A stretch of 52,022 bases of DNA from Akkermansia muciniphila (GTDB lineage Bacteria > Verrucomicrobiota > Verrucomicrobiia > Verrucomicrobiales > Akkermansiaceae), in the NCBI GenBank assembly GCA_945862285.1, contig CAMAYN010000002.1:1-52022 (forward strand), given 5' to 3'. The notes below the pieces were generated by a model. That model saw nothing but the letters and a program-made list of their open reading frames with translations. It had not been told where the DNA came from and searched no databases. The first letter of the stretch is position 1. Each line of letters opens with the position of its first letter. Shown here one piece after another: positions 3,979 to 37,280 of this stretch. A program made the position numbers and the translations under genes.

Positions 3979-5610
3979 TTATTTTTTTGCCCGTTTCCAC
4001 GCTTCGGGGCGAACGATCTGTTTTGCCGCTTCGAGTTTTTTCAGGAGTTCGGGATAAGGCACGTCTTGCACGCGGGATTTGTTATCGATGGCGAGTCCGG
4101 CGGCGATGGCACTGCTTTGGCTAAGAGTCATGAAAACAGGTTCCATGCGGATGGATCCATGTGCGACGTGCGATGCGGAGAGGCAGATGGGCGAGAACAA
4201 GTTTTCGCATTCGCCGCGCTTGGGAATGATGGAGCGGTAGGAGACACCGTAGGGACGAGGCGGGGTGCGCCAAATGACGCCTTCATTTTGCACGGTGCCC
4301 TTTTCCGTGACGATGTGTTGCACACAGTGAGAATCCATGCCAAAGGAAGCTAAACCAACGGGATCTTCTGCTTTTCTTGTGCCCATGGCATCGTGCTGGG
4401 TCATGACGTAGTCACCTACGACACGTCGAGCTTCGCGAATGTAGATCATCCACGGCCAGCCGCCATTGTCGGTGAATTCATCTTTCGGGAGGCCGTATTG
4501 TGCGGTCTGTTTGCGGATTTTTTCTGGCACTCTGGGGTTATTTGCCATCGTCCATAAAAAGCCAAGGATGTAGGTTTTATGAGCTTTTTCGATTTCGATG
4601 CGGCGTTCGTAGCTGGCTTCTGGGTATTCGTAGTTGGCACCGACGTAATCAGAGCCGACGGCGTGCATGTTATTCCAGTCCACTTTTTTTCCGGTGCCGC
4701 CAAGGGGCTCGATGAGGGCCGGCATGCGGTTATCGCCCGCTTCAAAGTTACGCAAAAGGAGTTCGTGGTCGATTTCGCGATATCCTTCGGGTTTTACGAT
4801 AGGGATTTGATTATCAGGGTTGGCAGTCAGGCAGACGCGATAGTTAAACGCCTGAATTTTTTTATCGCCTTGGCCGTTCGTTAGTCCTTCTGCCTTAACA
4901 ATGTGGGGTAATAAGCCGCTGGAGGGGTCGCCTTTTTTGACGTAGGGATCGACGTCAACGACGAAGTGATCTTTGTTTTTCTGGCCGTAATGAACCCGAG
5001 GATCGGTATCGCCACGGCGCACGCCTGCGAGGTCTTCTTGGTATTGGCTTTCTGGCTCCCGTCCCACAGTGTAAGTCACTCCAGCCGCAGCCATCAGGTC
5101 GCCTACGTATGTGGCATCGATAAACATTTTCCCATGGTAGGTTTTGCCGCTGAGCGTGGTGATGGCAGTGATTTTCTTGCCATCCATGGTGACTCCTTTG
5201 CCGGATGTGCGATCGAGTTGCTCATTAAAAACCACGGTTAATCCGGCATCTTTGATCATTTTTTCGAAGACATTTTTCCCGACATGTGGTTCAAAGCTGC
5301 GGACGTTTTTCACGCCGTAAGTAGCGGATACAGCATCGTAGAATTCTGAGGCGATGCCGCCAAAGGTGCTGCGGTAGCCTAAGAAATCTGTGGCTCCCAA
5401 ACCGCTAGCCGTCATGCCTCCGACGAACTTGGTGGGATTTACGAGGATGACATTTCGTCCTTCGCGTTTGGCAGATAAAGCGGCGACGACAGCGCCCGAA
5501 GAATCGCCATAGACGACGATGTCATACGTGGGATTTTTTTGCTCTGCGGCCCAAGAACAATGGAGCAGAGGAGCAAGGATGCTAAGCATCAAGTGAATAG
5601 GTTTTTTCAT
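3979..5610 (-). CDS. secreted FAD-dependent oxidoreductase (FAD_oxidored family)
   Basis: A 543-aa flavoprotein with an N-terminal signal peptide (KK, then a hydrophobic stretch to about residue 22 ending AAE). The dinucleotide-binding beta-alpha-beta is YDIVVYGDSSGAVVAALSA, followed by the GGMTASGLGATD segment typical of PF12831 proteins. These are common in Verrucomicrobiota and Planctomycetota genomes near polysaccharide-degradation genes, and their substrates are mostly unknown. The C-terminus carries ASHVAHGSIRMEPVFMTLSQ, also typical of the family. The ATG at 5610 is followed directly by the signal peptide. It is divergent from the COG0523 GTPase gene and upstream of the amidohydrolase gene. 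Export implies that FAD is loaded before or during Tat or Sec transit; I see no RR motif. Confidence 0.85.
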   Translation of the reverse strand: MKKPIHLMLSILAPLLHCSWAAEQKNPTYDIVVYGDSSGAVVAALSAKREGRNVILVNPTKFVGGMTASGLGATDFLGYRSTFGGIASEFYDAVSATYGVKNVRSFEPHVGKNVFEKMIKDAGLTVVFNEQLDRTSGKGVTMDGKKITAITTLSGKTYHGKMFIDATYVGDLMAAAGVTYTVGREPESQYQEDLAGVRRGDTDPRVHYGQKNKDHFVVDVDPYVKKGDPSSGLLPHIVKAEGLTNGQGDKKIQAFNYRVCLTANPDNQIPIVKPEGYREIDHELLLRNFEAGDNRMPALIEPLGGTGKKVDWNNMHAVGSDYVGANYEYPEASYERRIEIEKAHKTYILGFLWTMANNPRVPEKIRKQTAQYGLPKDEFTDNGGWPWMIYIREARRVVGDYVMTQHDAMGTRKAEDPVGLASFGMDSHCVQHIVTEKGTVQNEGVIWRTPPRPYGVSYRSIIPKRGECENLFSPICLSASHVAHGSIRMEPVFMTLSQSSAIAAGLAIDNKSRVQDVPYPELLKKLEAAKQIVRPEAWKRAKK

Positions 5611-7412: not shown

Positions 7413-8282
7413 ATGAGCATAAAAAAATTGATTCCTTTTGTTTCCATCTTCGCGCTGCTGTTAGCCCGCACTGCCGCCGGTCAAGACGCTGCGCCCAAAC
7501 AAGAAAAGCAAAACGAAAGTAAGGAAGATGCGCTAGCCGCAGCAGTCGCTAACTTGAAATTGCCCGGCGTGACAATCAATCGGGAAAAGCTCGAAGTTTC
7601 CGTAGATGCCATCTGCTGCTTAGACGCAGGACTTCTCGAATACGCCATTTGCAAACCTGACACCTTCGAGCATGAATCCCTTTTCACCACGACGGCCAAG
7701 CCCGAACTGATCCACGCCGCCCTGTTACTTTGCGGGTTGAAAGACAATCCGCAAATTCATACCTTACCCGAATTATGGTGGAACGAGGCATTGAAAAAGA
7801 AAGAATCGAGGCTGCAAATCGAAGTCGAGTGGGAAGACAACAAGCAAAAAGTTCGCCATAGCCTTAGTTCCTTAATGCAATCGCGCCAAGGTGAAGACCC
7901 ACGTGAGCAAAATAAAGTTGCCGCCAAGCCGAAGCCAGCTGAAGACGCTTGGATTTTTTGTGGATCATTCATTCACAAACCAGAAAATGGCGGACCAAAT
8001 GCGTATGCCGCGAATCTCAGCGGTGTCATCGTCGGCATTTGGCCAGACCCCACAGCCGTGATTCAATATGGCGTTCCTAACGAAAACCCCTATGGGAATC
8101 CTGAAGCAGGCTTGGAAATCAATGAGGAAAAAATGCCCAAACTCGGAACGGCGGTAAAATTAATTTTTATCTGTAAATCACCCGAAAAAAAAGAAGTCGT
8201 CGAAGAGAAGAAACCAACTCCTGAAACGGCCCAGCCTGCGCCAGCACCTACATCACCACAGGCAGAAACGGAAAAAAAATAG
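7413..8282 (+). CDS. secreted YdjY-domain protein
   Basis: A 289-aa protein with a Sec signal peptide (residues 1 to about 23, ending TAAGQ). Its first half contains VSVDAICCLDAGLLEYAIC and HESLFTTTAKPELIHAALLL, which is the pattern of the YdjY domain found in many Verrucomicrobiota and Planctomycetota secreted proteins. The biochemical role of this domain is not known. The C-terminus is a Pro/Glu/Lys/Ala-rich low-complexity tail (about the last 30 residues), likely a flexible linker. The start at 7413 was chosen because it puts the signal peptide at the N-terminus. It is the last backbone gene before the island. Confidence 0.75.
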   Translation: MSIKKLIPFVSIFALLLARTAAGQDAAPKQEKQNESKEDALAAAVANLKLPGVTINREKLEVSVDAICCLDAGLLEYAICKPDTFEHESLFTTTAKPELIHAALLLCGLKDNPQIHTLPELWWNEALKKKESRLQIEVEWEDNKQKVRHSLSSLMQSRQGEDPREQNKVAAKPKPAEDAWIFCGSFIHKPENGGPNAYAANLSGVIVGIWPDPTAVIQYGVPNENPYGNPEAGLEINEEKMPKLGTAVKLIFICKSPEKKEVVEEKKPTPETAQPAPAPTSPQAETEKK

Positions 8283-8339
8283 CGGTTCTCTTGCTTTGGC
8301 CTGAACTTTGTATCGAATCACCAGGGCAAAAATGTAAAA

Positions 8340-8359
8340 AGGGAGCCCGAAGGCTCCCT
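8340..8359 (-). terminator. original intrinsic terminator of tRNA-Tyr (displaced left copy)
   Basis: On the minus strand this is an 8-bp stem (AGGGAGCC/GGCTCCCT) with a TTCG loop followed by a T-run. It lies just downstream of the left tRNA-Tyr 3' fragment. The matching terminator of the intact tRNA at the right junction differs by one loop base. Confidence 0.75.
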
Positions 8360-8377
8360 AATGGTTCGACAATGAAA

Positions 8378-8435
8378 TGGTGGGCAGAGCTGGATTCGAA
8401 CCAGCGTAGGCGCAATCCAGCAGATTTACAGTCTG
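8378..8435 (-). repeat. attL: 58-bp 3' fragment of tRNA-Tyr
   Basis: This matches the 3' part of the intact tRNA-Tyr at 37317-37374, from the CCA end through the T arm and variable arm into the anticodon stem, with a single mismatch (T for G in the long variable arm). The match ends abruptly at 8435. Similarity continues outward to about 8336 through the terminator. This is the direct repeat expected when an element integrates into a tRNA 3' half and replaces it with its own copy. Confidence 0.9.
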
Positions 8436-8450
8436 TTACTTCTTCGATTT

Positions 8451-8468
8451 TCATTGATTCATCAATGA
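8451..8468. promoter_or_regulatory. perfect 8-bp inverted repeat next to attL
   Basis: TCATTGAT and ATCAATGA are separated by 2 bp. The palindrome lies 15 bp inside the island and about 60 bp upstream of the integrase start. It could be an operator for the integrase gene, an excisionase site, or a recombinase site. No experimental parallel is claimed. Confidence 0.5.
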
Positions 8469-8526
8469 TCACTAATGATAGCAGTTTTTCCTTGTTTTTC
8501 TTTAATATATAAACGATTATCTCCTC

Positions 8527-9951
8527 GTGAGCACGATCAAAGACAATCAAATTGAGTCAGCCGTACCGGAGAAAATTGCACCGTTTTTGCACCGCTCGAA
8601 AACCAACCATACTCGGGCCGGTGAGAGCAAAGCTGATGCACGGTATTGGTTAAGCGGCAAACGCTTAGTTCTTCATGATTCAGCCAATTACTCCATACAA
8701 CTCTCAAAACAAGGCCAACGCGCTTGGTTTCCTCTTGGAACACCTAACAAAAAATCAGCAGCAGCGAAGGCCGCAGAAATCTATATCTTCATGCAGAAAC
8801 ACGGTTGGCACGCAACAATAGAAAAATATAAACCCAAGGCAAAATCTAATGAACTGGGTGATGTTTCGAGTGTAGGAAAACTGATCAAAATAGCCTGTAG
8901 CATCTCATCCGCGCGGCGCGAAAGTCTAAATGCCTACACTAAGGCATTACGAAGAATCGTGTCTGAAATCAAAGGTATTCAGAGCAATCGCAAATACGAC
9001 TTTCAAGGTGGTGGTGTAGCCCATTGGCAAGGTGCTATAGATGCTGTTAGCTTAGACTCTATTTCGCCATCTGATGTTGTCGCATGGAAAAACAAAAGAT
9101 TGAGAGACGTGGAGAACGACCCTCTTGCAAAACGACGGACGATTACAACGGTCAATTCACTCATACGAAATGCCAAAGCCCTATTTGGAAAGAAAATCCT
9201 GCCGTTCATCGAACAAAAAATGCCCATCCCCCGACCATTGCCATTTGAGGGAGTTTCTTTAGAAAAAGCACCTTCCATGCGCTACATCTCAAGGATGGAT
9301 CCTTTTGCTATACTCGCCAGCGCAAAAAATGAACTGGCAATAACTAAGCCCGAGGTGTTCAAAGTTTTAGTCCTAGCTCTCGTTTGCGGCATGAGAAGAT
9401 CCGAAATCGATAACCTTCTCTGGCGTGCTTTCGATTTTTCCAATGCAAAACTAAGTGTGGAAACTTCCGAATTCCATCAACTAAAAAGCGAAGACAGCGC
9501 CGGTGAAATTGATTTAGATTCCGATACTCTGGCATTATTCAGAGGCTTTCGCGCTCAGAACCCCACTTCGCTATTTGTCATCGAGAGCCCTAATGCTCCA
9601 CGAAACGAAATGAAAGCTCGATGCTATCGATGCAATGCAGTCTTCAAGGTGGCGCTGGACTGGTTGCGCAGCAAAGGTGTTGAAAGCACTAAACCACTTC
9701 ACACCTTGCGCAAAGAGATTGGTAGCGTCATTGCCAGCGAATACGGCATCTTCGAAGCATCGCGATACTTGCGACATTCTGACATTCGAATCACATCTGC
9801 GATTTATGCTGACAAGAAAAAGGCGATCACCCCGAAAGCATTTGCAGGATTACTTGGACCTACCCCCAAAGAGGATTCAATCAACATATCAGAGCATCAA
9901 TCAACGAGTAAACAAAAAACAACACGCACTCGGAAACCTTCCTCCAAGTAG
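8527..9951 (+). CDS. tyrosine recombinase (island integrase)
   Basis: A 474-aa phage-type integrase that catalyses site-specific recombination between the element and the tRNA-Tyr gene. Catalytic residues are visible: GMRRSE (Arg at about 290), HTLRKE with His392 and Arg395, RHSDI with His417, and the nucleophile in SAIYAD, Tyr427. The N-terminal part has an arm-binding-like segment (YWLSGKRLVLHDS) and a SAM-like core-binding region around residues 115-235. It starts with GTG at 8527, with no good Shine-Dalgarno; a later start is possible. The first 25 codons overlap a 36-bp repeat that recurs at the other end of the island, which may be an arm-type binding site inside the coding sequence. 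Position beside attL is typical for such elements. Confidence 0.92.
   Translation: MSTIKDNQIESAVPEKIAPFLHRSKTNHTRAGESKADARYWLSGKRLVLHDSANYSIQLSKQGQRAWFPLGTPNKKSAAAKAAEIYIFMQKHGWHATIEKYKPKAKSNELGDVSSVGKLIKIACSISSARRESLNAYTKALRRIVSEIKGIQSNRKYDFQGGGVAHWQGAIDAVSLDSISPSDVVAWKNKRLRDVENDPLAKRRTITTVNSLIRNAKALFGKKILPFIEQKMPIPRPLPFEGVSLEKAPSMRYISRMDPFAILASAKNELAITKPEVFKVLVLALVCGMRRSEIDNLLWRAFDFSNAKLSVETSEFHQLKSEDSAGEIDLDSDTLALFRGFRAQNPTSLFVIESPNAPRNEMKARCYRCNAVFKVALDWLRSKGVESTKPLHTLRKEIGSVIASEYGIFEASRYLRHSDIRITSAIYADKKKAITPKAFAGLLGPTPKEDSINISEHQSTSKQKTTRTRKPSSK
8563..8598 (+). repeat. left copy of 36-bp end repeat with tandem TTGCACCG
   Basis: Thirty-five of 36 bases match 37225-37260 in the same orientation. 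Each copy holds two TTGCACCG units with starts 11 bp apart (8576 and 8587 here), about one helical turn. In the circular form the two copies would flank the attP core at roughly 110-130 bp on each side. This fits arm-type integrase binding sites, which is an inference. Confidence 0.75.
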
Positions 9952-9986
9952 TGAATTAGATCATTCAACTGTAAACGAAAACGAAT

Positions 9987-11303
9987 ATGAGCACCAATCT
10001 ACAATCAGAATCTCATGAATTAATTCACGGAGAGATCAATTTGCAGCAAATCGATCAGTATCTCAGAATTAAAGACGCTACTGAACTTGCTCGCTTGGCT
10101 GCTACGATGGCAACAAGCTCCAAATCCCTTAGTCCGCAAGAACTGATCGACTCCGCACTTACGTTGCAGGAAGAAGCTGAAAAAGGATTGATCCGTAAAC
10201 GTGTACAGTTGCTATCGCAAATGAATTTGCAAACAGCTCTTGAGATAGCTCGTCAACTTGGTGTTCTTGATAAAGCATTCGCACTGGGGAATGATCCCGT
10301 TCTCAACGATCCTGTAAAAGGTCCTGTCGTTGAAGTCTTAAAAAAAATCTTTTCGCAGGATGCGCAGCTATGCATTAAGGATAACAAGCGGCGCAGCGAC
10401 AAAGCATTGGCTGAAGCCGATTCCAGAACAGTAATACCTCGCCCAAGCCTCCCATGCAATCTTGAAGAAGCTCTGCGCTACTCTGTTGATGCCCCTGATA
10501 AATCTTGGCCCTTATTAGAAAGAGCATTTATTGATTTTTTGGGAGTATATCAAAGTGAACGCATTGCAACTCAAGAATGCGATTATCGAACAGACATCGA
10601 AGAGCAATTTAATAGGGACAAAGAACTACTAGCCGATCTAGCGAGGAAAGCCAAAACAGATCAAGAATTACAGCCGCAGCTAAGTTCCCTAAAAGCAGAG
10701 CTAGATGCGACTTGTAAAATCATTGATGAATGGAAAAAGGAAAAATTTTATCGTGAATGTTTCACTCCAACTCTAACAACTCCTGATCACATTAAAGAGC
10801 AATCTGAAATCACATACAAAAATTTCTGGGGCTCGCGACATCTCGTCAGAAGCGAAGATTCGCTGTGTTTTCTCACAATAGATTTTTACGCTTTCTGGAA
10901 AGCTCATTCCAAAGCTTATTTAAAACAGCATACAGAAGCAGAAAAGAAAAAGCTACAGACCAGCAAACAAAAATCAAAGACCGGAGCGAAAGGCCCAACG
11001 ATCCGAGATCATGATAAGTGGGTGAGACACTGCCAAAATTTCAAAAAGTTCCAAAATGATCCACTCCAAATCAACAAGGGTGCAGATGTAACTAGTCAGA
11101 TAAAGTTGTTTGTAGATAGTAAAAGCGGATTGAGGGACAAAGTAGCCAAGAAAAAGCTATCTGATACTCTGAACACTCTCTGCAATCCAGGCAGCCTACA
11201 AACCAGTGCTTTAGATTTGCTACAAATCCTACGAAATGAAGGCAATAAAGCGATTTCCGAAATTACGATTATTGAGTGCCTTGCCATTTTACGTAGAGTG
11301 TAG
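9987..11303 (+). CDS. island protein of unknown function, helical
   Basis: A 438-aa protein that I do not recognise. It is almost entirely predicted helix, with charged coiled-coil-like stretches (for example around residues 205-250 and 310-330) and a very basic segment near residue 325-335 (KKKLQTSKQKSKTGAKG) that could contact nucleic acid. No enzyme motif, signal peptide or membrane span is visible. It lies 35 bp after the integrase gene in the same direction, so it may be expressed with it. It may belong to the maintenance or transfer module of the element, but no function can be assigned. Confidence 0.6.
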   Translation: MSTNLQSESHELIHGEINLQQIDQYLRIKDATELARLAATMATSSKSLSPQELIDSALTLQEEAEKGLIRKRVQLLSQMNLQTALEIARQLGVLDKAFALGNDPVLNDPVKGPVVEVLKKIFSQDAQLCIKDNKRRSDKALAEADSRTVIPRPSLPCNLEEALRYSVDAPDKSWPLLERAFIDFLGVYQSERIATQECDYRTDIEEQFNRDKELLADLARKAKTDQELQPQLSSLKAELDATCKIIDEWKKEKFYRECFTPTLTTPDHIKEQSEITYKNFWGSRHLVRSEDSLCFLTIDFYAFWKAHSKAYLKQHTEAEKKKLQTSKQKSKTGAKGPTIRDHDKWVRHCQNFKKFQNDPLQINKGADVTSQIKLFVDSKSGLRDKVAKKKLSDTLNTLCNPGSLQTSALDLLQILRNEGNKAISEITIIECLAILRRV

Positions 11304-11431
11304 AAAGCAGTGGTAAAAAATGTGAAAATATTTCTTTGCAGATTTTGGGCTTTCAAATTTAAGGATTTCGCATCGCCCGTGGATGATTTTAAGGGCTCAT
11401 CGATTTCCTCACATTGTCTTGTTGGGATAAT

Positions 11432-11538
11432 TTGGATCACCACCTCCCATTTTGTGCATTTTTAGTGGATCGCACTCATGTATTTTTATGCGCTGTGTGG
11501 ATCACCAAAGGTGAATGCAGTATCCAAGGTGGATCACC
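11432..11538 (+). repeat. four iteron-like direct repeats, consensus GTGGATCACC
   Basis: Copies lie at 11432-11441 (TTGGATCACC), 11465-11474 (GTGGATCGCA), 11497-11506 and 11529-11538 (both GTGGATCACC). The spacings are 33, 32 and 32 bp, about three helical turns, so all copies face the same side of the DNA. The third is followed by a TCACC-AAA-GGTGA palindrome. They fill the 284-bp gap between the unknown protein gene and the excisionase-like gene. They could be a replication origin bound by an initiator, or operators for the HTH protein. Confidence 0.7.
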
Positions 11539-11587
11539 CTACTGTTTGCGATAGTGATTGCGAGCTTAAGAACGCTCTCAACCACAC

Positions 11588-11782
11588 ATGAACGACAAGA
11601 AAAGTGAAGAACAGAAAAGCGCATCAGAACCTTGGATTGACACCAATGCTGCATGCAGACACTTGGACATCTCGGCACCAACCATACGCAGATGGATCAA
11701 AGCAGGAAAACTGAAGCCAAAACGCACACCCACTGGTGAGCTCCGTTTTCGGCGATCAGAACTCGACCTCATCCTCGCCTAA
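11588..11782 (+). CDS. HTH_17 (MerR-like) DNA-binding protein, excisionase-like
   Basis: A 64-aa protein that is little more than a winged helix-turn-helix: WIDTNAACRHLDISAPTIRR then WIKAGKLKPKRTPTGELRFR. This is the helix-turn-helix_17 type found in excisionases and small phage regulators. It could direct excision of the island by bending attachment-site DNA, or regulate the replication genes downstream. The iteron-like repeats end 50 bp upstream of its ATG and are obvious candidate binding sites. It is the first gene of the plus-strand replication block. Confidence 0.82.
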   Translation: MNDKKSEEQKSASEPWIDTNAACRHLDISAPTIRRWIKAGKLKPKRTPTGELRFRRSELDLILA

Positions 11783-11874
11783 ACCAAACAGGCCGACACC
11801 ATTTCTGGCATCGACCTGCGGTAGTAGTTTGCTGCGAAGAAAATAGCCTGAAGTGTAGTCACCTGCAACCTAAA

Positions 11875-12147
11875 ATGCAGAAGATAATGTTTCAACTGAA
11901 TCAAATAACATGCGCCCTGGGCAATTCAAGAAAGACGGAATCTTGGCCGCCTCTAAAGCAAGGTATCGCAACACAATCAATTGATATACTCAACCAACCA
12001 TATCGATTTGGAGATGTGACGGCCACTCAAATGGTGCCGCTTGTCATTGCTGAGTTTCTACAATTGATCTCCCACTTGAATAGCAGCAGAGCATGCCGTG
12101 AGGCCTATCAAGAAATAATGGATCCAAAAATTGATGCGAACCATTAA
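11875..12147 (+). CDS. small island protein of unknown function
   Basis: A 90-aa protein with no recognisable domain. Residues after about 40 resemble a helical domain (ATQMVPLVIAEFLQLISHLN). It ends 5 bp before the start of the replisome-organiser-like gene, so it probably belongs to the same transcript. It might be a replication accessory or control protein. The ORF is short and I have only its position in the operon as support. Confidence 0.5.
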   Translation: MQKIMFQLNQITCALGNSRKTESWPPLKQGIATQSIDILNQPYRFGDVTATQMVPLVIAEFLQLISHLNSSRACREAYQEIMDPKIDANH

Positions 12148-12152
12148 AACCG

Positions 12153-12833
12153 ATGAAACTTGACCCTGGATTTATCAATCACTGGAAAACCGAGCGCCTT
12201 ATGGATCAACTCGGAGCCGAGGGAGTCATTGCTATTCTGAGATTGTGGGGAAATGCTCAAATCCGCCGCGCTTTTTCGGGATTGCATTTCACCCCGAAGC
12301 GACTCGCCATGGAAACCAAATGGAAAGGTGATGCAGAAAAACTTTTTGCTGTCCTAACTGATCCTGACGCGCCATGGCTAGACATGGATGAAGATGGGAC
12401 TTTTACCATTCACGGATTTTCCGAGCATCAGCATCAGGTGGTGAAGCTGTGGGAGAACGGCAAGAAGGGAGGAAGGCCACCTAATACTGCTCGGAAAACC
12501 TCTCCTTCCTCTTCTCCTTCCTCTTCTTCTTCCCCCATTTGCGAACCAAATGAAAACCAAATGGTTTTAGAAAACGAACCTAAGGCGAGAAAGCAGAAAG
12601 CCAAAGGAAGCATCGAAGAGTTAAAATCGTTCGCAGTGGAAATAGGCTTACCAGAATCAGATGGTGAAAACTGTTTTCACAAATGGGAATCAACTGGCTG
12701 GAAGGGCATAAAGAATTGGGAGGCGAAAATGAGGACATGGAAGATAGAAAAATATCACCCATCCCAAAAGTATCCCACCGCAGATCCCCAAAACACTAAT
12801 CTCATCGTTGGAGGGAGGGTTATAAAACAATGA
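12153..12833 (+). CDS. replisome organiser / helicase-loader-like protein
   Basis: A 226-aa protein. Its N-terminal 100 residues (KLDPGFINHWKTERLMDQLG, GVIAILRLWGNAQ, HGFSEHQHQVVKLWENGKKG) look like the winged-helix region of phage replication proteins that recruit the helicase. A Ser/Pro low-complexity linker at about residues 115-128 separates it from a C-terminal domain with AVEIGLPESDGENCFHKWES, similar to the DnaT/DnaD-type C-terminal motif that contacts ssDNA. Its stop overlaps the ATG of the DnaB helicase gene (ATGA), a classical initiator-helicase pairing. The linker is encoded by a TCTTCC/TCTCC-rich tract at 12501-12535 that could be prone to slippage. Confidence 0.65.
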   Translation: MKLDPGFINHWKTERLMDQLGAEGVIAILRLWGNAQIRRAFSGLHFTPKRLAMETKWKGDAEKLFAVLTDPDAPWLDMDEDGTFTIHGFSEHQHQVVKLWENGKKGGRPPNTARKTSPSSSPSSSSSPICEPNENQMVLENEPKARKQKAKGSIEELKSFAVEIGLPESDGENCFHKWESTGWKGIKNWEAKMRTWKIEKYHPSQKYPTADPQNTNLIVGGRVIKQ

Positions 12834-14158
12834 ATAATACACCCGAAACCTTCCAAGCCCTTCCCCACGCATTAGGACCAGAGAAGGCTGTTTTATCAGT
12901 CCTCTTCCAATATCCTGAAATGCTCGACGAGGCTCCGACCCTGACAGCGGAACATTTCTATCTACAGAGCCATCGTATGCTCTTCAAATTGATCCACGAA
13001 CTCACGAAGGCCTGTAAGGCCGTGGAGCTCGTGTCATTTACCCAATTGCTCATTGACCGCAACATTATGGATGTCGTGGGCGGACCGTCTGCCATTACCG
13101 AAGTATTCTCATATGCGCCAAACTGCTCGCACTTTCAAGAACACCTCAGATGCCTGACGAGTAAGCTCGCCTGCCGAATGACGATTGCAGCAGCCCGAGA
13201 AATGGAGCGAGTTGCATACGAAACTGATGATACGACGGCGATCCTTGAAGCCACCTCTGCGCCCATTTCAGCAATTCACGACACTCTGACTTCAACAAGG
13301 CCAGCAAAAAGCACCAAGGCTGTTCTTGCCAGCTGCTTAGATCGATTTCAGCAATTGTGTTTGGGACATGAAGACCCGATGGGTATCGAAACCAGTTTGG
13401 TTGAATTAAACCTGCGTTTTCGCGGACTTCACAGAAAGCAAACCGTGGTGATTTCAGGATACCCTGGAGCGGGAAAAACGACATTGGCCACACAACTTGC
13501 TATAGATGCTGCGCTGGCAGAGCACAATACCCTGATTTGTTCTCTAGAAATGCCGGAGGAAACGATGATGACCCGACTGCTTGCTTACGTTGCCGGCGTA
13601 GGAGGTGATGCCATAACAGACCCTAGACGATACTCGATGAAAACAAGTGGGACAGAGAAAGTAACGGCCGAGCTGTTAAAATCTATCAATTCCGCATCGA
13701 TGAAAATTAGTGTGTCTCCGCTGACGATTGAGGACCTTATCGGTGCGAATGTCTATCAGATTTCCGCGTGCATTCGTCGGGCTCATCGCAAGAAATCCTT
13801 GGACGTGGTTGCCGTTGATTACGTGCAGCGTATTCGACCAGTTCCCGAAATGAAGAGAGAGAGTCGTGAACAGCAGCTTGCCCATGCATCGAACCACCTT
13901 GCAGATTTATCAAAAGAACTTGGGTTTTGCCTTTTGCTTCCTTCACAGCTCAACAAAGACGGTGCGGCCAAGCATGCCGAAGCGATCAACGAAGATGCAG
14001 ATCTACACCTACAAATTGTCCAGGACCGCACTGGACCAGCAGCCACATTTGCACATCGGGGTATCGCCGTAGTGAAGGACCGCCATTCAGGACAAGACGG
14101 CACACTCTTGCATATCGTGCTGGACGGCCCAATGCTCAGGTTCGTCGCCAAAACATAG
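12830..14158 (+). CDS. replicative DNA helicase, DnaB family
   Basis: A 442-aa DnaB-type hexameric helicase. The N-terminal domain starts GPEKAVLSVLFQYPEMLDEA and includes SHRMLFKLIHEL. The RecA-like domain has Walker A SGYPGAGKTTLA at about residue 206-217, the CSLEMPEE motif, and Walker B with VVAVDYVQRI near residue 325. Such helicases, carried with a loader gene, let an element replicate as a circle after excision. It overlaps the loader gene by 4 bp. It is distinct from a chromosomal DnaB in length and context, consistent with phage or plasmid origin. Confidence 0.9.
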   Translation: MNNTPETFQALPHALGPEKAVLSVLFQYPEMLDEAPTLTAEHFYLQSHRMLFKLIHELTKACKAVELVSFTQLLIDRNIMDVVGGPSAITEVFSYAPNCSHFQEHLRCLTSKLACRMTIAAAREMERVAYETDDTTAILEATSAPISAIHDTLTSTRPAKSTKAVLASCLDRFQQLCLGHEDPMGIETSLVELNLRFRGLHRKQTVVISGYPGAGKTTLATQLAIDAALAEHNTLICSLEMPEETMMTRLLAYVAGVGGDAITDPRRYSMKTSGTEKVTAELLKSINSASMKISVSPLTIEDLIGANVYQISACIRRAHRKKSLDVVAVDYVQRIRPVPEMKRESREQQLAHASNHLADLSKELGFCLLLPSQLNKDGAAKHAEAINEDADLHLQIVQDRTGPAATFAHRGIAVVKDRHSGQDGTLLHIVLDGPMLRFVAKT

Positions 14159-14162
14159 AACT

Positions 14163-14708
14163 ATGCGAACACTCATCTTATGCCGAGAACGACTTGATCG
14201 ATTGCTTGCAGTGTTAGATAGAAATAATGGCACAGCCTCATTTCGTGATCTAGATAGAACATATCGACTTCATGCATGGGAAATAGAACATGCCGCACAA
14301 TTAGGCTGGATACAGATATTCATTAGCAAACCATCTACGGGGCGACCGTCTAGATGCGCGAAAAAACTCAGCCAAAATACAGTCGCGAAACTACCTCCCT
14401 ATCGCGAACAAATCACACCTGAAATCAACTATCGCCATCAAAGATTCGCATTCGAGTCCATCAACATCATGCCCGGCGGCAATTTGGGATTCAAACTATC
14501 CACCTTGGTCCGGGCTTACATGAAGACATTTCCAAATGCCAAAAGCAGAAAAGGAGCATACGCAAGTGCAAGTAGGCTCGCGAAACGATTCGAGGTAAAG
14601 GTAGTTCAACTCTGGTATCGCCGAACAATGACGATGTCCCCGCGTGAGCCCATGCCAAACAGTGTCCAAGGAATTATCGATCGACTTCGCGCTCTTGGTT
14701 TGCTATAA
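14163..14708 (+). CDS. putative DNA-binding protein of the replication module
   Basis: A 181-aa basic protein starting 4 bp after the DnaB stop, so part of the same operon. The N-terminal half (MRTLILCRERLDRLLAVLDR, FRDLDRTYRLHAWEIEHAAQ, then STGRPSR) resembles a winged helix with an AT-hook-like GRP turn. The C-terminal half is rich in Arg and Lys with a KRFEVKVVQLWYRR helix that could be a second HTH. I do not recognise a named family. A role in replication, partition or regulation is possible. Confidence 0.55.
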   Translation: MRTLILCRERLDRLLAVLDRNNGTASFRDLDRTYRLHAWEIEHAAQLGWIQIFISKPSTGRPSRCAKKLSQNTVAKLPPYREQITPEINYRHQRFAFESINIMPGGNLGFKLSTLVRAYMKTFPNAKSRKGAYASASRLAKRFEVKVVQLWYRRTMTMSPREPMPNSVQGIIDRLRALGLL

Positions 14709-14911
14709 TTTGCTGCATTCTGGATCCTTTTTGGGGAATTGTTATCTGACCAACAAAGCGTTCGAGTATGACAGCATGCAATCGAAGATGGTGAAGACTC
14801 CGCTTTTCTGAATGAACGCCAGAATGATTCACAATCATCGGGATAAATGATGACATTTGTTGACATTTATTTTTAACAAAACTCGGCATCGCAATCGATG
14901 CTGCCGGCTTT

Positions 14912-15250
14912 TCAAACTCCAATCACTGATTTTCGCAAACTCCTCACGTAGCGCTTGAACATCTTAGCAACTTGACAGCGCTTAAGCCCCCACTCCCCAA
15001 TCATCACTCGCCATACATCCATTCTGGCTTTGTCTGCAACGGGAATCCTTGAATAACAGACGATATTCATCGGGTCAGCGCCATACTCTTTAGCTTTCAT
15101 CATAACCAAATCACGGGCTCTATGGAGCAACTCAAGATTTACGGGTGATGGCTTTTTCGGAGGTAGGGCGCATGGAACTGGTTTTGGTGGCCGCGGTTTG
15201 CTGGGAGACTTCGACAAAAATCGATATTTATTTCTAGGTATAGGCTTCAT
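14912..15250 (-). CDS. small basic protein with possible C-terminal HTH
   Basis: A 112-aa protein with a Lys/Pro-rich, disordered-looking N-terminus (about 35 residues) and a helical remainder. The segment RMDVWRVMIGEWGLKRCQVA followed by KMFKR looks like a helix-turn-helix, and the preceding helix ARDLVMMKAKEYGAD is reminiscent of DnaA domain IV. This is a weak resemblance. It is transcribed toward the replication genes, with a 203-bp gap between their 3' ends, and lies 54 bp downstream of the phosphatase gene. Its function is unknown. Confidence 0.5.
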   Translation of the reverse strand: MKPIPRNKYRFLSKSPSKPRPPKPVPCALPPKKPSPVNLELLHRARDLVMMKAKEYGADPMNIVCYSRIPVADKARMDVWRVMIGEWGLKRCQVAKMFKRYVRSLRKSVIGV

Positions 15251-15304
15251 AAGGAAAATGTGTGTGTTCGAATGGGTAAATGGTAAACTTCTTGTGGTAC
15301 TGTT

Positions 15305-16267
15305 TCATGAGTGACCGATATAGTTTTCGGCTTTGATACGCTGTTCTCCCTTCCAACGGTAGGCCACCAGAGGTCCATCAACAGCGGCAGAATAGTCAAG
15401 GCATGCGACATTGTGCCTTTCGGGATAGAATGCGGCATTGGCAGGCTTGTAGTAATGGCCCACGAACACGGGAGTAGCATCCACGTTGTATGGTTGGAAC
15501 ATTTGCCTAGCCTCATCATTCACCGGCCAATCTTTGATCTGAGAATTACTGGGGAAAACCAAATCGCTGCAAACTCGACCGTTGCTCACGGCTTCCCACC
15601 AACGAGCACGGAATTGTTTCCGTATGGTTCCCGTATGATCAATGAAGAAGTGTGGCTCAGGCAACGGAACTTCGATTCCTTTGAGGACTGCTTCGATCGC
15701 CTCGTATTCGCGAGATTTCTTTACAGTGCAAGCGAGAAAGAAATCGGGATCTTCGAGACTTTTCCCCTCCAATACCCGCAAGTGCTCTGGATGCCAGCAG
15801 GCATGCACCGCACGAAACTCGCCAAGATCGAGCGAAAACGGTAAGCGTTTCATCCAGGGAATCCACACTTGCTGCCACTCGCTCGCAGGATCATCATAAT
15901 CAGGGAAATCATCCAGTGTGCCTTGGTGTTGCGCGATATTCTTGCTGCCACGGATGCGCAACCATTTGCCATCCGGCCCCTTGCTGTGGAAGTAGATGGC
16001 GTTGTATTCGTGATTGCCCATTAAGCACAATGCATCTCCTCGATCGCACATCGCTTTCACGGCCCGCAATGTGTCACGAACTCCGTCAGGAGATGGGTGA
16101 CCAGGTTTGGGATCAATGAGATCACCGAGAAATAATGCGCGGTGCCCAGCAGGAGGAAGAAATCCCTCAACTTCCCGTGTATAGCCAAGTCGTTCCATTA
16201 GCGCGGTCAGTTTGTCAAAGCGCCCGTGTATATCTGCGATGATGTCGTAGTGCATGTCGTTCTTCAT
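15305..16267 (-). CDS. calcineurin-like phosphoesterase (PrpE/Ap4A-hydrolase-like)
   Basis: A 320-aa metallophosphoesterase. Motifs in order are DIHGRFDKL (residues 10-18), GDLIDPKPG, GNHEYNAIYF, a central HACWHPEH, and GHYYKP near the C-terminus, so the di-metal centre is complete. The early GNHEYN and long insert resemble the serine/threonine phosphatase and diadenosine tetraphosphatase branch. The substrate could be a phosphoprotein or a dinucleotide such as Ap4A. It is divergent from a LysR-type regulator with a 72-bp shared intergenic region, so that regulator may control it. It sits between the replication module and the defence run; a nucleotide-signal-degrading role in defence or stress is possible but unproven. 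Confidence 0.8.
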   Translation of the reverse strand: MKNDMHYDIIADIHGRFDKLTALMERLGYTREVEGFLPPAGHRALFLGDLIDPKPGHPSPDGVRDTLRAVKAMCDRGDALCLMGNHEYNAIYFHSKGPDGKWLRIRGSKNIAQHQGTLDDFPDYDDPASEWQQVWIPWMKRLPFSLDLGEFRAVHACWHPEHLRVLEGKSLEDPDFFLACTVKKSREYEAIEAVLKGIEVPLPEPHFFIDHTGTIRKQFRARWWEAVSNGRVCSDLVFPSNSQIKDWPVNDEARQMFQPYNVDATPVFVGHYYKPANAAFYPERHNVACLDYSAAVDGPLVAYRWKGEQRIKAENYIGHS

Positions 16268-17327: not shown

Positions 17328-18824
17328 TCATGACCTATCAGGAAACCTTGTCCGACAATAATTCAACAATTGTTCCCCTGAAATATTGTGCGTTGCAGGA
17401 TTTGTTCTAACATAAAAATCAACCCCTCCAATAAAACACGGTGCATTAGATGCTCTCACATCAACACGCAACACAGGCACGTCATCGAGCATGACTATTT
17501 TATGGTCAATCAAAGGAAAGAAGTTTGACCCTATTTTACTTTTTAATAATTCCTGAAAATGAAGCACGAATTTGTCCCTATTACCCTTAAACAGAACGTC
17601 GATTTCATGCACGATTCCAGGAATGGAATGATCATCTGCTACCCCAATCAGCAACGTTCCACCATCAGAATTTAAGAATGCTGCAATAGTTTTAAGAACT
17701 GCGAGGGCTTTACCTTTATCCACCAAATCTGATCGTTTATCTAGGCTAAGCGTTTGCTTAAATTCTAATGTTTTGGATTCATCACGATGAACCAAAATAT
17801 GCGTATCTTCAGTGTTTGGATCTTGATCCACTTTGAAAATTTTCAGCAGGTCGGACAGTCTGTGCTGAACGGGTAGTTGCTCTACATCCTTAGCATTCAA
17901 CGAGGTAAAATCAGTCTCAGTCTCCTTACGCACACGGGCTGACGTATATTCTATAAGTACTGAATCACAGTCCGAAGCATACCATTGGCGCTTCATACTT
18001 TCTGCTGCTGCAATGACTGAACCCGATCCACAATAAGGATCAACGATAGTATCTCCCTCCTTTGTGAAAACGGACAAAATTCTTTTAGCTAACTCTATTG
18101 GTTGCGGATACACACTTCGGGCCAAGGTGACGATGTCAGATGAGGCTGACGGCATAACATCCCATACTGAGCCTAAAGGACGAGACGTTTCATCCAGATA
18201 TCGCTTGATCCGTGGAAACATACCACCCGCGAAATCGATTCTGCAATCCGCTGCTAAAGTTTCCAATTTTTCCTGCGAATGATGCCACGAATATCCCGGG
18301 GGTGGTGTATGTCCTCTCCACTCAAACTGCATGAGAGGGCGATCAGCCTTTGATAACAGTGTTTCCAATCGGTAAGCTCGCCCGTCGTTGTCGCATAAAT
18401 TGAATTGATTCAGATCGTCCTCATTCACCTGTCGCATTGGTGGAACGAAAAAGTAATCGCCCTCAGTTTTACTGTAGGCGATCAGATTCGAGTGATTTGG
18501 AGTAGGATGAGACCGATATTGCGCAGCTCGTTGTTGGTTGAGAATCAATTCCGTAAGGAAGTTACTTTCTCCATAGACGCGATCAAGCAATGTCCTCACT
18601 GTAGAAATCTGCCTTGGAACCGCGTGCCAAACGATCAAGCCATCATCTTTCAGACATGCCTTGCAGAGTGCCGCTGTATGCAAATAAAGCGACGCGAGAT
18701 CTTTATCAGACATAGACCCTTCAGCCTCCCATGGCGGGTCAATGTAGGCAAATGCTATCGATTTCTCTGGTATTCTCTTGAGCAGATCGAGTGATGAGCA
18801 GTGAGCTAATGATCGCGTATTCAT
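17328..18824 (-). CDS. DNA methyltransferase fused to an AlbA_2 (Schlafen-like) domain
   Basis: A 498-aa protein with two parts. The first is a beta-class DNA amino-methyltransferase: motif IV DPPW at about residues 29-32 precedes motif I, DPYCGSGSV near residue 260. Whether the target is N4-cytosine or N6-adenine cannot be told. The second part, from about residue 340, has ESKTLEFKQTL, VLKTIAAFLNSDGGTLLIGV and ADDHSIPG, the signature of the AlbA_2 domain (divergent AAA-4, Schlafen type), a putative ATP- or nucleic-acid-binding module found in regulators and some nucleases. I do not recall this fusion as a standard family. ATG 18824 is preferred over a TTG at 18839. It is last in the run, 42 bp after the Res-like gene, and may methylate the sites that the upstream nuclease attacks or sense modification. 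Confidence 0.8.
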   Translation of the reverse strand: MNTRSLAHCSSLDLLKRIPEKSIAFAYIDPPWEAEGSMSDKDLASLYLHTAALCKACLKDDGLIVWHAVPRQISTVRTLLDRVYGESNFLTELILNQQRAAQYRSHPTPNHSNLIAYSKTEGDYFFVPPMRQVNEDDLNQFNLCDNDGRAYRLETLLSKADRPLMQFEWRGHTPPPGYSWHHSQEKLETLAADCRIDFAGGMFPRIKRYLDETSRPLGSVWDVMPSASSDIVTLARSVYPQPIELAKRILSVFTKEGDTIVDPYCGSGSVIAAAESMKRQWYASDCDSVLIEYTSARVRKETETDFTSLNAKDVEQLPVQHRLSDLLKIFKVDQDPNTEDTHILVHRDESKTLEFKQTLSLDKRSDLVDKGKALAVLKTIAAFLNSDGGTLLIGVADDHSIPGIVHEIDVLFKGNRDKFVLHFQELLKSKIGSNFFPLIDHKIVMLDDVPVLRVDVRASNAPCFIGGVDFYVRTNPATHNISGEQLLNYCRTRFPDRS

Positions 18825-18866
18825 AGAAGTAGACAGCAACAGTAATGACGATAGTAAGTTTCCTTG

Positions 18867-21800
18867 TCACAAGGTTACATTGGATTTGGCGGCACCGGTT
18901 ATTAACCCAAACATCTTGCCGATGTAGGAATCAGGTTCATCTTTTTGAAGTATGATATGAGCCTCAGCGAAGTCGGCTTCAGTTTTGAGCTCATCCCACC
19001 ATTGGATCTGCTTGAATGAGGTGGTAGAAAGGATGAATGATTCCAGGAATAGGTCCGGGTTATCTGGCTTGAGACGAGCCTCCAGTTCTTTAATTTTCTC
19101 GGCAAAGGCGATTTTGGGATCGTTAAATCCTTGGGTGTTACGCAGCCCCTTGGGATCGACAAAGCAGACGTGCTGCTTGTTGCCCACGATCAGCCAGACG
19201 ATAAAGTCCGGGTAAAAATTGCCGGCCTCGAAGAAGCCGATTCCTTTCTTGCTTCGGTTGCGCAAGACGAACAGCTCTTTGTTCTCAAAAAACGCCTTGT
19301 TGGTCTCATGGAATTTTTTGAGGTCTTGCATGAATTGCCATTCGCCGGGATTCAACGAAACAGGCGTGACTTCGATGACCGAGTTCCCGTTGATGTGGAT
19401 GAGCGGCGAATATAGGTGCTTGTCCCAGCGTAAGGCATTGACTCTAGCAAAAGCAAATTTCTCAAATGTGCCAGAGATGACTTTTTCTCTTAAATCTTGA
19501 ATTTGTTCGATGAGCTCCGTTTCGCCTTGCTGGATGCGGAAGGTGTATTCTTGGAGGAAATTCGGATCGTTTTCTGTCAGTTCAAATACGGCGGCGTGTT
19601 TGCTTTCCCATGCTTGTTTGCGGTATCGGTAAAGGCGATCGATGTAGCCAGTGAGTAATGCCTCCGCGATTTGTTGCCAGATGCGGACGCGCTCGAATCG
19701 AGTAGGCTCCAGCTCTTCCTTAGGAATAAAAAGATTATACCAGTGGGGATTAGATAAGATGGTGGAGATCTGATCGCGTTCCAGTCGTAAGTTGTTGTAT
19801 CCGCGCACGGTTTTAAATTGTTGAAGGCGCAGATAGAGTTCCTCGTAGTCAAGGAAAGCAAGGTTTGTCGAATTGAGGCTACCTTCGTCTCGCTTGGCCT
19901 TTAATGTCGCACCCGATTGTGCCGTGGCTTTCAGAGCTTCGATGCGGGGATACCAGTCAACGACGACGGGAAAGCGGCGGAAATAATCCGCTTCCAACTC
20001 AAAGTGCGGCCTCGGTGCATCGCGTTTGTAGTTCAGGTTATCTGGCACGCGCACTACTTTGAGCTTCCGTGATGGGAAATCGTTTAGAGTAGGTATGATG
20101 GGGATTTCTACTTCTTCCCACTCGGGATCAGTCTGAATGCCTTCAGTTTCCAAGTATTCTTTGAACTGCTTCATGTAGTCGGCACGCACACCGAAGACAT
20201 CGAGCGTCTCCACAATACTCAAAAATCGTCTTTGCGATTCTGTCGCCCGCTGCATGACCTCGTGATTGATGCGTTTGAGTGCATCGGAACGTTTGAGCGT
20301 CATGTTCCAGCCCTTTAGCCGCACACCTCTCCCGAAAAGCTGGATGATTTCCGAGCCTTCCTTGCGACCAAGGTTCATCAGGCCGATGGCTGATACCCGC
20401 CAACTATTCCACCCCTCAGTGAATTTGCGAGACCCCAGCACAATGTGAATGCGGGAATTGGACTGGGCTAGTTGTTTGAACAATGATTCGCCGAATTCCC
20501 TGTCTGGGTCAGCGATGAGAAATTTCGGATGTTCCGAGCATCGATCGTATAGTGTTTTTTCATCGCCCACGTTGATGACGCCAAAGGGCTCTGCCACCCC
20601 TAGACTAAGACTGAGTTCACCTTTGGCGGAACGGATGTTGCAAACATGGATTTTGCCGCCACCCGGTGAATTGAACAAGGAGCGCAGAATCCCCTCAAAG
20701 GCCTCTTCTCCGGTCAGATTGATCTTTTTCAGGTAGGGAAATGCGGCAGAGAAAATCGACTGCTGCTTCGTATCGATGAGTCCGTCGGTCTCCGTTAGCA
20801 GGCGATTGAGGCTGGTGACGGAAAGAGCGCGGTCTGATGTGAACTTCGCCAGAAACAGTAACACATCGACAATGTCCGAGATTTCCCCGGCGTTAACCTT
20901 CGCCCCGAAGAAAGCCCATAGTGGGCGCTCGATGTTGAAAATGGCAAAGTCCGCCGGATGATCTTCCCACAAGCGAAGTTGTTGGTAGAACGATAGTAAG
21001 GCACCCGTGAGATAGAGTTCTCTTTGCCCGCCATCTTGGTGTTCGGAGAGATTAAAAATGCGGTAATTTTTACCGTAGCCGTCCTTGTGGAAAAAGCGGT
21101 AGCTATAATCAAAGAGAATCCAACGGGCATAATTTTGCTCCATCTTAGGGTCCTTGGCCGCTTTGACGGCTTGGCCGAAGGTGGCGGAGTATTCGAAGCT
21201 GAAACCATCTCGGCATAGTGCTTCGCGGCGCTCCATCCATTTTTCTCCCGATGATCCTCGGTGCCCCTCATCGACCATGACCAGGTTCTTGCCTTCAAAG
21301 CAGTCCACGGCCACGAGCTTGTCTTTCGATTCGTCGGCGAGCTTGTTCACATCGACGATCTCGACGGTGTATCCGGAAAACATCGTTGCCTGTCCTGTGC
21401 CTTCTTTGTCGAAAATCTCCGCATCGATGCCCGAGGCGCTGAACTCCTTCAGGTGCTGCATGCTCAGCCCATCGTTCGGTGTGAGGAGGATGATCTTGTT
21501 CAATTCACGGCGTTTGCCCGCTTTCTCCAGGTAGTGGAGGTATTGAAGGATGTTCACGTGCATTTGCAGCGTCTTGCCACTGCCCGTGGCTTGCCAGAAG
21601 CAGAGCTTTCGCAAGTCCACCTCAGTGTAGCGAGTTTCAAAGCGGTCCGCCGCTCTCTCTTGCTCCTCATTGAAGGCCTCTAGGTGCGCATTCAGGCCAG
21701 CCAGTAGCTCGGCAGGGCGATGGAAGTACCAATGGAGGTAAATCTCCGTAAAAAGCAGGGCAATGTATTGATAATATTTCCAGCGAATCGGCTCCGTGCG

Positions 21801-22082
21801 GCGACCGTTGATACGCTGGGTATGGCGCACAATGTTTTCATCGAACGCACGGAGCAGCGCATTCGGGAGCTTCTGCCGCTCCACCGTGTAGCGTGTCAGC
21901 AGGTGGTGAAATTCGGTGACATTTTCCGTGTCCCATGCCTCCGCGTCCGGGTGACGAAACTCTTCATCGCAGAGCTTGTCGATGTCCTTCGCCTCCAGCA
22001 GCGAAAAGATCCATTGCTGGAGAATGAGCTTCTTATCGAAGTCCAGAGGCGGGCGGGCGTTTGTTTGTCTGCGTGCTGGCAT
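18867..22082 (-). CDS. type III restriction-like helicase-nuclease (Res/COG3587-like)
   Basis: A 1071-aa DEAD/DEAH helicase with a C-terminal nuclease. Walker A is ATGSGKT at residues 165-171 and motif II is DEGH at 271-274. A late QLFGRGVRLKGWN corresponds to motif VI. Near the C-terminus FYPDFIVWLIV and FVDPKG (about residues 956-979) give the PD-(D/E)xK signature of type III Res subunits, with Asp959, Asp976 and Lys978 as likely catalytic residues. Together with the Mod-like gene at 25922-29041 it would cut unmodified DNA after ATP-driven translocation or diffusion. Unusually, about 3.8 kb of ATPase and DUF4276 genes separate it from Mod; normally mod and res are adjacent. Confidence 0.87.
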   Translation of the reverse strand: MPARRQTNARPPLDFDKKLILQQWIFSLLEAKDIDKLCDEEFRHPDAEAWDTENVTEFHHLLTRYTVERQKLPNALLRAFDENIVRHTQRINGRRTEPIRWKYYQYIALLFTEIYLHWYFHRPAELLAGLNAHLEAFNEEQERAADRFETRYTEVDLRKLCFWQATGSGKTLQMHVNILQYLHYLEKAGKRRELNKIILLTPNDGLSMQHLKEFSASGIDAEIFDKEGTGQATMFSGYTVEIVDVNKLADESKDKLVAVDCFEGKNLVMVDEGHRGSSGEKWMERREALCRDGFSFEYSATFGQAVKAAKDPKMEQNYARWILFDYSYRFFHKDGYGKNYRIFNLSEHQDGGQRELYLTGALLSFYQQLRLWEDHPADFAIFNIERPLWAFFGAKVNAGEISDIVDVLLFLAKFTSDRALSVTSLNRLLTETDGLIDTKQQSIFSAAFPYLKKINLTGEEAFEGILRSLFNSPGGGKIHVCNIRSAKGELSLSLGVAEPFGVINVGDEKTLYDRCSEHPKFLIADPDREFGESLFKQLAQSNSRIHIVLGSRKFTEGWNSWRVSAIGLMNLGRKEGSEIIQLFGRGVRLKGWNMTLKRSDALKRINHEVMQRATESQRRFLSIVETLDVFGVRADYMKQFKEYLETEGIQTDPEWEEVEIPIIPTLNDFPSRKLKVVRVPDNLNYKRDAPRPHFELEADYFRRFPVVVDWYPRIEALKATAQSGATLKAKRDEGSLNSTNLAFLDYEELYLRLQQFKTVRGYNNLRLERDQISTILSNPHWYNLFIPKEELEPTRFERVRIWQQIAEALLTGYIDRLYRYRKQAWESKHAAVFELTENDPNFLQEYTFRIQQGETELIEQIQDLREKVISGTFEKFAFARVNALRWDKHLYSPLIHINGNSVIEVTPVSLNPGEWQFMQDLKKFHETNKAFFENKELFVLRNRSKKGIGFFEAGNFYPDFIVWLIVGNKQHVCFVDPKGLRNTQGFNDPKIAFAEKIKELEARLKPDNPDLFLESFILSTTSFKQIQWWDELKTEADFAEAHIILQKDEPDSYIGKMFGLITGAAKSNVTL

Positions 22083-22111
22083 GAATGTCGAGTAAAAGTA
22101 ATTGGAAAAAG

Positions 22112-22675
22112 TTAGGCTACATCAGCCAGCAAACGGCGAATCCCATCGAGAAAAACCTGAAAGCTGCGGCTTGTGTTACTCTCAATATCAAGGTGCGGGC
22201 CAATCTTGCGTGACCCGCCGATTTTCTGGTAGGATCCTTTTGTGATTTTGTGAAGCTCGGTCGCTGGATTCACAATTTGATCAGGCGTGCGATATTTTGC
22301 TTTATTTGAAAATTGGACAATCCCGCTTAATCCAAGCCCTTTTTCTACGGCCCCTAAGTCACCAAAATACCAGCTTTCCAGCTCGCGGCAGGCGATACGA
22401 ACGAGTGCTTCTGGCCGCCCCGCCGCTCGACAAATCTTCAACAAGTTCTCCTTGATCACACGGCAATCCCCACTGTCCTGATCCCGCATTACCAAGAAGA
22501 CTGAATTCGGTCTGAGCCAATCCTTGATCTTCCGGCCTAGTTGGCGTTCCAAGTCCTGCTTGCCCTCGAACACCATGAAATGAACGGAGACTCCATCAGG
22601 CAAGACCCTCGGCAATAGCCCTTCAAGCATGGCCCTGGCGGATGGCTCTTCTAAAAGCAATACCAATGTTTTCAT
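22112..22675 (-). CDS. DUF4276 protein 2 (Toprim-like)
   Basis: A 187-aa DUF4276 protein. It begins with a beta-strand and LLLEEPSARAML, then FEGKQDLE, and has RDQDSGDC with Asp65, Asp67 and Asp70. This Glu near the N-terminus plus a DxD is the Toprim-like pattern. IACRELESWYFGDL is another family block. DUF4276 proteins are usually paired with COG4637-type ATPases, as AriB with AriA in PARIS or RloB with RloA, although AriB carries DUF4435 instead. Its start overlaps the ATPase 2 stop by 4 bp (ATGA), so the two are translationally coupled. The likely role is an effector nuclease, held by the ATPase until triggered; this is inferred from the related systems. Confidence 0.8.
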   Translation of the reverse strand: MKTLVLLLEEPSARAMLEGLLPRVLPDGVSVHFMVFEGKQDLERQLGRKIKDWLRPNSVFLVMRDQDSGDCRVIKENLLKICRAAGRPEALVRIACRELESWYFGDLGAVEKGLGLSGIVQFSNKAKYRTPDQIVNPATELHKITKGSYQKIGGSRKIGPHLDIESNTSRSFQVFLDGIRRLLADVA

Positions 22676-23862: not shown

Positions 23863-23911
23863 GTTCTTGATTCTTGCTGGATGTTACTGGCAGTTTACCC
23901 GCATGAACTTC

Positions 23912-24079
23912 TTATCCAAGTCTTAAAGGCGACCAGCTATTGCTGTTGTGGCGAGATGGGATTGCGTAATAAAATGCAGGGAGAAAGTCACTGTAATCTG
24001 TTTCGGGAACATCAGCCAATGAAAACATAAATCCATTGATTTTCAAAAGACTGCCGTGATAAATAGCATGACGTGTCAT
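23912..24079 (-). CDS. 55-aa small ORF coupled to DUF4276 protein 1
   Basis: This small frame lies in the 213-bp gap between the two ATPase modules. Its ATG overlaps the stop of the DUF4276 gene as ATGA, the same coupling seen at three other junctions of the run, and it ends with TAA at 23912-23914. The 55-residue product begins MTRHAIYHGSLLKINGFMF and is rich in aromatic residues, ending WSPLRLG. I recognise no family. It could be a small regulatory partner or trigger of the ATPase-DUF4276 module, or the remnant of a longer gene. Support is the start coupling and operon position only. Confidence 0.45.
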   Translation of the reverse strand: MTRHAIYHGSLLKINGFMFSLADVPETDYSDFLPAFYYAIPSRHNSNSWSPLRLG

Positions 24080-25901: not shown

Positions 25902-25921
25902 GGTTTTCGGTAGGTTGGAAT

Positions 25922-29041: not shown

Positions 29042-29066
29042 GAGTGCTAGAAAGAGTGTAGCTGGT

Positions 29067-34177: not shown

Positions 34178-34182
34178 ACTGA

Positions 34183-37065: not shown

Positions 37066-37104
37066 CAATTGTAACGATACGGGAACGAGACATATCTGGT
37101 AGGC

Positions 37105-37131
37105 TTTATAATGCAAGTTTACTCTGACCAA
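37105..37131 (-). promoter_or_regulatory. possible promoter of the eleven-gene run
   Basis: On the minus strand TTGGTC (37131-37126) and TATAAA (37110-37105) are 15 bp apart, about 40 bp upstream of the SNF2 start. The -35 is imperfect and the spacing short, so support is modest. I saw no other better promoter between the tRNA and the gene. Confidence 0.3.
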
Positions 37132-37260: not shown

Positions 37261-37280
37261 CAAAATCTCTAACAAGAAAA

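Follow-up and report, generated by a model that had tools for sequence, protein, structure and literature searches.

In multi-site operators, as known from integrative elements and from phages, several phased sites lie upstream of a regulatory or replication operon. In the integrated island SGI1, oriV comes immediately downstream of rep and ahead of xis; it has four 17-bp iterons flanked by AT-rich DNA, and replication stops when it is deleted, which makes it a tested precedent (PMC7433901). TIGR arrays, another type of regular row of short repeats and variable spacers beside a gene, comprise two alternating repeats with 9-nt spacers, a unit length of 36 nt and a Nop-domain protein (PMC12045711).

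The window studied here is the whole 52,022-nucleotide stretch of Akkermansia muciniphila DNA that was analysed (assembly GCA_945862285.1, contig CAMAYN010000002.1, positions 1 to 52,022). It contains an island of approximately 29 kb, which extends from a partial tRNA-Tyr copy to the intact tRNA-Tyr and has the left-end gene order tyrosine integrase, ORF2, repeat array, HTH gene, 90-aa ORF, Rep and DnaB, followed by defence-model genes. The original prediction had placed the repeats beside DnaB in an island able to excise, and both the tRNA-integrated island and the DnaB gene are real. The features are as follows.

8336 to 8435, no strand: attL, copy of the 3′ part of tRNA-Tyr (92% over 101 columns)
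8527 to 9951, + strand: tyrosine integrase of the island (family match)
9987 to 11303, + strand: ORF2, 438 aa, of no known family; goes with the array; proposed binder
11304 to 11345, + strand: AT-rich tract that follows the ORF2 stop and precedes the array; GC minimum of 20% in the 30-mer at 11314
11369 to 11377, + strand: weak unit 1, CGCATCGCC (chain scan; resembles the units of L057 and L039)
11400 to 11408, + strand: weak unit 2, TCGATTTCC, doubtful (chain scan)
11433 to 11441, + strand: unit 3, TGGATCACC (direct reading, chain scans)
11466 to 11474, + strand: unit 4, TGGATCGCA (direct reading, chain scans)
11498 to 11506, + strand: unit 5, TGGATCACC (direct reading, chain scans)
11530 to 11538, + strand: unit 6, TGGATCACC (direct reading, chain scans)
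11545 to 11555, + strand: conserved box TTTGCGATAGT (alignment of the window, L039 and L057)
11588 to 11782, + strand: HTH_17/excisionase-like protein, 64 aa (family match)
12153 to 12833, + strand: phage-type replication initiation protein (Rep), PHROG 9474
12830 to 14158, + strand: DnaB-type replicative helicase (family match)
37277 to 37374, no strand: attR side, at the intact tRNA-Tyr 37317 to 37402 on the − strand (sequence comparison)

Several observations concern the island itself. Its cargo, 17328–37131, forms a block matching anti-phage models, with model matches to a type III methyltransferase (25922–29143) and restriction enzyme (18867–22082), two HEC-01-like ATPase/partner pairs (22112–25937), a PDC-S68 protein (30362–34198) and a DrmD-like helicase (34183–37131); the protein at 17328–18839 matches methyltransferase models over its first 340–350 residues or so only. 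Of the five DnaB relatives with a name, four come from Verrucomicrobia records, counting Haloferula as a member of that phylum. The 181-aa ORF at 14163–14708, which has no family match, is 46% identical to its counterpart in L039 (6924–7451) despite the unrelated replication genes that precede them. The Rep model built from three sequences had low confidence (pLDDT 54) and a winged-helix-like N-terminus, and gave no match in the PDB at E 0.001; a short 12-bp tandem tract lies inside this rep gene at 12501–12533.

The array was located in the 284-bp gap between ORF2 and the HTH gene. By direct reading, GGATCRC occurs there four times in direct orientation on the + strand, with starts at 11434, 11467, 11499, and 11531 and spacings of 33, 32, and 32 bp. 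The sites read TTTGGATCACC (GGATC at 11434), AGTGGATCGCA (11467), TGTGGATCACC (11499), and GGTGGATCACC (11531), and exact GTGGATCACC is present in two of the four. A strict chain scan, which required at least four 9-mers with at least 7/9 matches at 31–33 bp spacing, returned one occurrence in the window and none in 10 shuffled windows. With a looser chain score (30–34 bp), the region reached 37 with six units, adding the weak units at 11369 and 11400 and giving spacings of 31, 33, 33, 32, and 32 bp. This score was matched by none of 300 first-order Markov resamplings, while one of the 365 tiles of 284 bp over the window reached it and the runner-up scored 27. No other array of at least four units was found at 8000–16000 of the window, and this is the one place in the host assembly (3.65 Mb, 279 contigs) that contains the triplet GGATCRC-N24-27-GGATCRC-N24-27-GGATCRC; GTGGATCACC by itself occurs there 12 times. 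Since only about 9 of every 32 bp are alike, the array was not detected by find_repeats and Tandem Repeats Finder. The repeat row is real, with the predicted period of 32–33 bp, and the remark that the sites share one DNA face fits as well, because 32 bp corresponds to about three helix turns.

Among 260 genomes from the same family, nine contain a relative of ORF2; seven of these carry most of the gene (with a broken frame in L060), and the other two, L058 and L059, fragments. A profile search of 384 genomes of the class returned only the own genome. An array of 9-bp sites at 31–33 bp spacing lies downstream of ORF2 in six of the nine genomes, or six of the seven with most of the gene. The unit consensus in this comparison was GGATCACC for the window, GCATCACC for L057 (five spacings of 32 bp), GCATCGCG for L039 (32, 32, 32, 32, and 31 bp, the first unit overlapping the end of ORF2), TGCCACTC for L060 (five spacings of 32 bp), CCATCRTGC for L061 (32, 32, 32, and 33 bp), and GCTTCGTGC for L040 (32 and 31 bp plus a weak fourth unit). 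L040 was the weakest array counted (p 0.013, three good units). No array was found in L062, which has most of ORF2 (p 0.34), or in L059; the fragment-bearing L058 was left out, as its p of 0.015 came from the best of several sub-windows in GC-rich DNA, with most units at 6–7/9. The unit sequences vary from island to island yet grade into one another. Across these six arrays, all from one bacterial family, with L040 weak as a whole and the window row weak in its two upstream units, the architecture of the array is conserved, not the sequence of the site. In L061, a minisatellite with a 10-bp unit (ACGGCGGATG) was also seen at 4680–4780, between integrase and ORF2.

The flanks of the array recur as well. 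All six array-bearing islands have an AT-rich tract ahead of the array, which ranks among the top 0.1–0.4% of AT-rich 30-mers in five islands and in the top 6% in L060, and which sits inside the 3′ end of ORF2 in L039; in the 7001–37400 stretch of the window, 0.15% of 30-mers have 20% GC or less. The box TTTGCGATAGT begins 15 bp past the start of the last unit in the window, L039, and L057, that is, in three of the five HTH-bearing islands, with looser forms in L061 and L040. Perhaps this box acts as an extended −10 element; a consensus scan of 11250–11700 returned no + strand sigma-70-type promoter, and we therefore offer this role as a suggestion. An inverted repeat, GAGC..GCTC, was noted just 5′ of the HTH start (11562–11577), with a longer GAGCG..CGCTC form in L057. 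A cluster of DnaA boxes was considered, since the window units, read on the minus strand, recall TTATCCACA and unit 5, there TGATCCACA, has one mismatch to a DnaA box. The likeness is not kept in the relatives, whose units are unlike DnaA boxes, and the cluster was rejected as support; no perfect DnaA box (TTWTNCACA) was found in the array region.

The presence of the array was then compared with that of each neighboring gene. L071 and L072, the two loci with the HTH gene and no ORF2, both lack an array; the integrase of L071 is 61% identical to that of the window and is followed by a different second gene. In L060, the array is present although its integrase does not match that of the window (Phage_integrase by Pfam), and no HTH start was found in the last ~130 bp of its contig. 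The replication modules behind the arrays are non-homologous, with Rep and DnaB in the window, a CHC2 primase and DUF3987 in L039, and D5_N/DUF5906 in L057, while two L061 proteins scanned for replication families gave nothing recognised. Conversely, the viral contigs L009 and L011 encode Rep proteins 72% and 49% identical to that of the window and have no row of at least four units. Accordingly, the array was rejected as the origin of the 12153–12833 Rep, which belongs to a phage initiator family and is not associated with the array. Because the array is kept without the Rep or integrase of the window and is absent from HTH-only loci and Rep-bearing viral contigs, it goes with ORF2, and not with the HTH protein, Rep, or integrase. 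Site similarity correlated with protein identity at the same rho of 0.59 for ORF2 and HTH (10 pairs each) and at 0.53 for ORF2 over 15 pairs; therefore, this co-variation does not single out ORF2.

ORF2 itself had no initiator-family match in Pfam, PHROGs, NCBIfam, or PDB sequences, and its single-sequence model was unusable (pLDDT 44). No relative of ORF2 was found in plasmid and phage records, or of Rep in phage records, and scans of viral contigs gave no relatives of ORF2, HTH, or integrase. An iteron origin is recognized by at least three direct repeats in phase, an adjacent AT-rich region, and an adjoining cognate initiator of a known Rep family. The first two are present here, and ORF2 matches no known Rep family. 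A DnaA box is frequent at such origins, though not universal.

Compared with the described systems, the locus resembles SGI1, likewise an integrated island, where direct repeats and AT-rich DNA separate the 3′ end of a replication gene from xis (PMC7433901). The SGI1 iterons are 17 bp long, its Rep is of the RepA_C type, and its oriV has a putative DnaA box, whereas the island of the window has 9-bp units at 32 bp, an ORF2 of no known family, and no perfect DnaA box. Three related Verrucomicrobia islands (L012–L014) share DnaB relatives (58–69% identity), a left-end integrase, and direct repeats in the replication module. Their repeats, however, are 22- to 24-bp near-contiguous iterons inside rep (L012 3322–3410, L013 3790–3862, L014 2850–2945), and these islands have no ORF2 and no 32-bp array. 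The sequence of these rep iterons differs in each island, and they were not seen in L015. With the multi-site operators of phages and integrative elements the row shares several phased sites upstream of a regulatory or replication operon; it differs from them in having five to seven direct sites, each single and set 32 bp apart, and a putative binder of unassigned family. With 9-bp units and no cas family among the eight proteins scanned at 8.5–15.3 kb, it does not resemble a CRISPR. A narrow literature search, which is not proof of absence, found no report of such an array. On the best reading, ORF2 would bind the sites and the array would be an iteron-like origin or control region of the excised island, as in SGI1.

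The original prediction had named an iteron origin and a multi-site operator, and these are still the right pair of hypotheses, although the binders named with them are unlikely. An operator without an origin is possible, if doubtful, and nearly as likely as an iteron-like origin. ORF2 would then occupy the row cooperatively, as repressor or activator, and control the promoter in front of the HTH-replication operon, which such an array would overlap or abut. The divergent sites would be immunity groups, and the origin would lie elsewhere, for example inside rep. The position of the last unit 15 bp ahead of the TTTGCGATAGT box, just upstream of the HTH start, suits an operator, as do the independence of the array from the type of replication module and the intragenic iterons of related rep genes. 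Because L012–L014 carry their iterons inside rep, the origin of the window could likewise be inside its own rep, which contains just the 12-bp tract, with the array as operator. An operator would have no use for an AT-rich tract at the far end of the array, and the promoter scan described above also counts against it. Binding of the units by the excisionase-like HTH protein, whether to regulate its own gene or within an excision complex, is unlikely. The HTH_17/excisionase family of this protein, the array immediately upstream of its gene, and a divergence that tracks site divergence as well as that of ORF2 speak for it, but across five proteins the recognition segment PT(I/L)RRWIKA varies at the I/L position alone while the sites differ, L071 and L072 have the gene without the array, and L060 has the array with no HTH start in the last ~130 bp of its contig. 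The 12153–12833 protein, the other binder named, is likewise an unlikely candidate, given the array kept with unrelated replication genes and missing beside close Rep relatives. ORF2, upstream of the array and unnamed in that prediction, is the better candidate.

That the row serves ORF2 on the excised circle as a centromere-like (partition) site, or in some other architectural role, is quite improbable; a row of short phased direct sites adjoins the gene of the presumed binder as it would at such a site, but of the eight proteins scanned at 8.5–15.3 kb none was recognised as a partition protein. Transcription of the row as a guide-RNA-like array of short repeats and ~23-nt spacers is the most improbable alternative. 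The constant period, variable spacers, and a unit length close to that of TIGR arrays agree with it, but each unit has one repeat and no second (loop) repeat, with one conserved block per unit by column information (24 of 32 columns), no second block by eye in rows of 32, and none of the TIGR-Tas features seen, and the seven ORF2 members have no Nop match in Pfam. Five window spacers have no second match in the window at up to 5 mismatches. RNA folding was not consistently better than in shuffles (z −1.7, −2.0, and +0.8), so RNA structure was dropped as support, and Rfam gave only two sub-threshold matches, at 8378–8428, the tRNA fragment, lending no support to an RNA.

We tentatively favor the reading in which ORF2 binds the row and the complex forms an origin of iteron type for the excised island, which possibly also acts as an operator. 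ORF2, whose gene lies just upstream, would bind at the five to seven short sites, which are direct and share one face of the helix. Bound in a row beside the AT-rich tract, ORF2 would most likely mark the origin and melt this tract, so that replication would start there with the loading of whichever helicase or primase module the island carries. The same complex may in addition control the operon headed by the HTH gene, which starts ~50 bp past the last unit. Counting against an origin are the ORF2 relative L062 and the fragment locus L059, both without an array, the iterons inside rep in L012–L014, the lack of a perfect DnaA box, the lack of an initiator-family match for ORF2, and a 9-bp unit per 32 bp, against the usual 17- to 24-bp near-contiguous iteron. 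It is conceivable, albeit doubtful, that ORF2 represents a new family of DNA-binding initiators, with 9-bp sites three turns apart, a fixed architecture and an island-specific site code, which can serve unrelated helicase and primase modules.

If ORF2 is the binder, this small set of islands would form a natural series with an altered site code and an unaltered geometry, which would allow a direct test of the co-divergence of protein and repeat (incompatibility or immunity groups). The series would likewise allow a test of how a single origin or control region can serve helicase/primase modules that are unrelated. The proposal would be the first functional hypothesis for the unannotated ORF2 family, in islands that here carry anti-phage genes.
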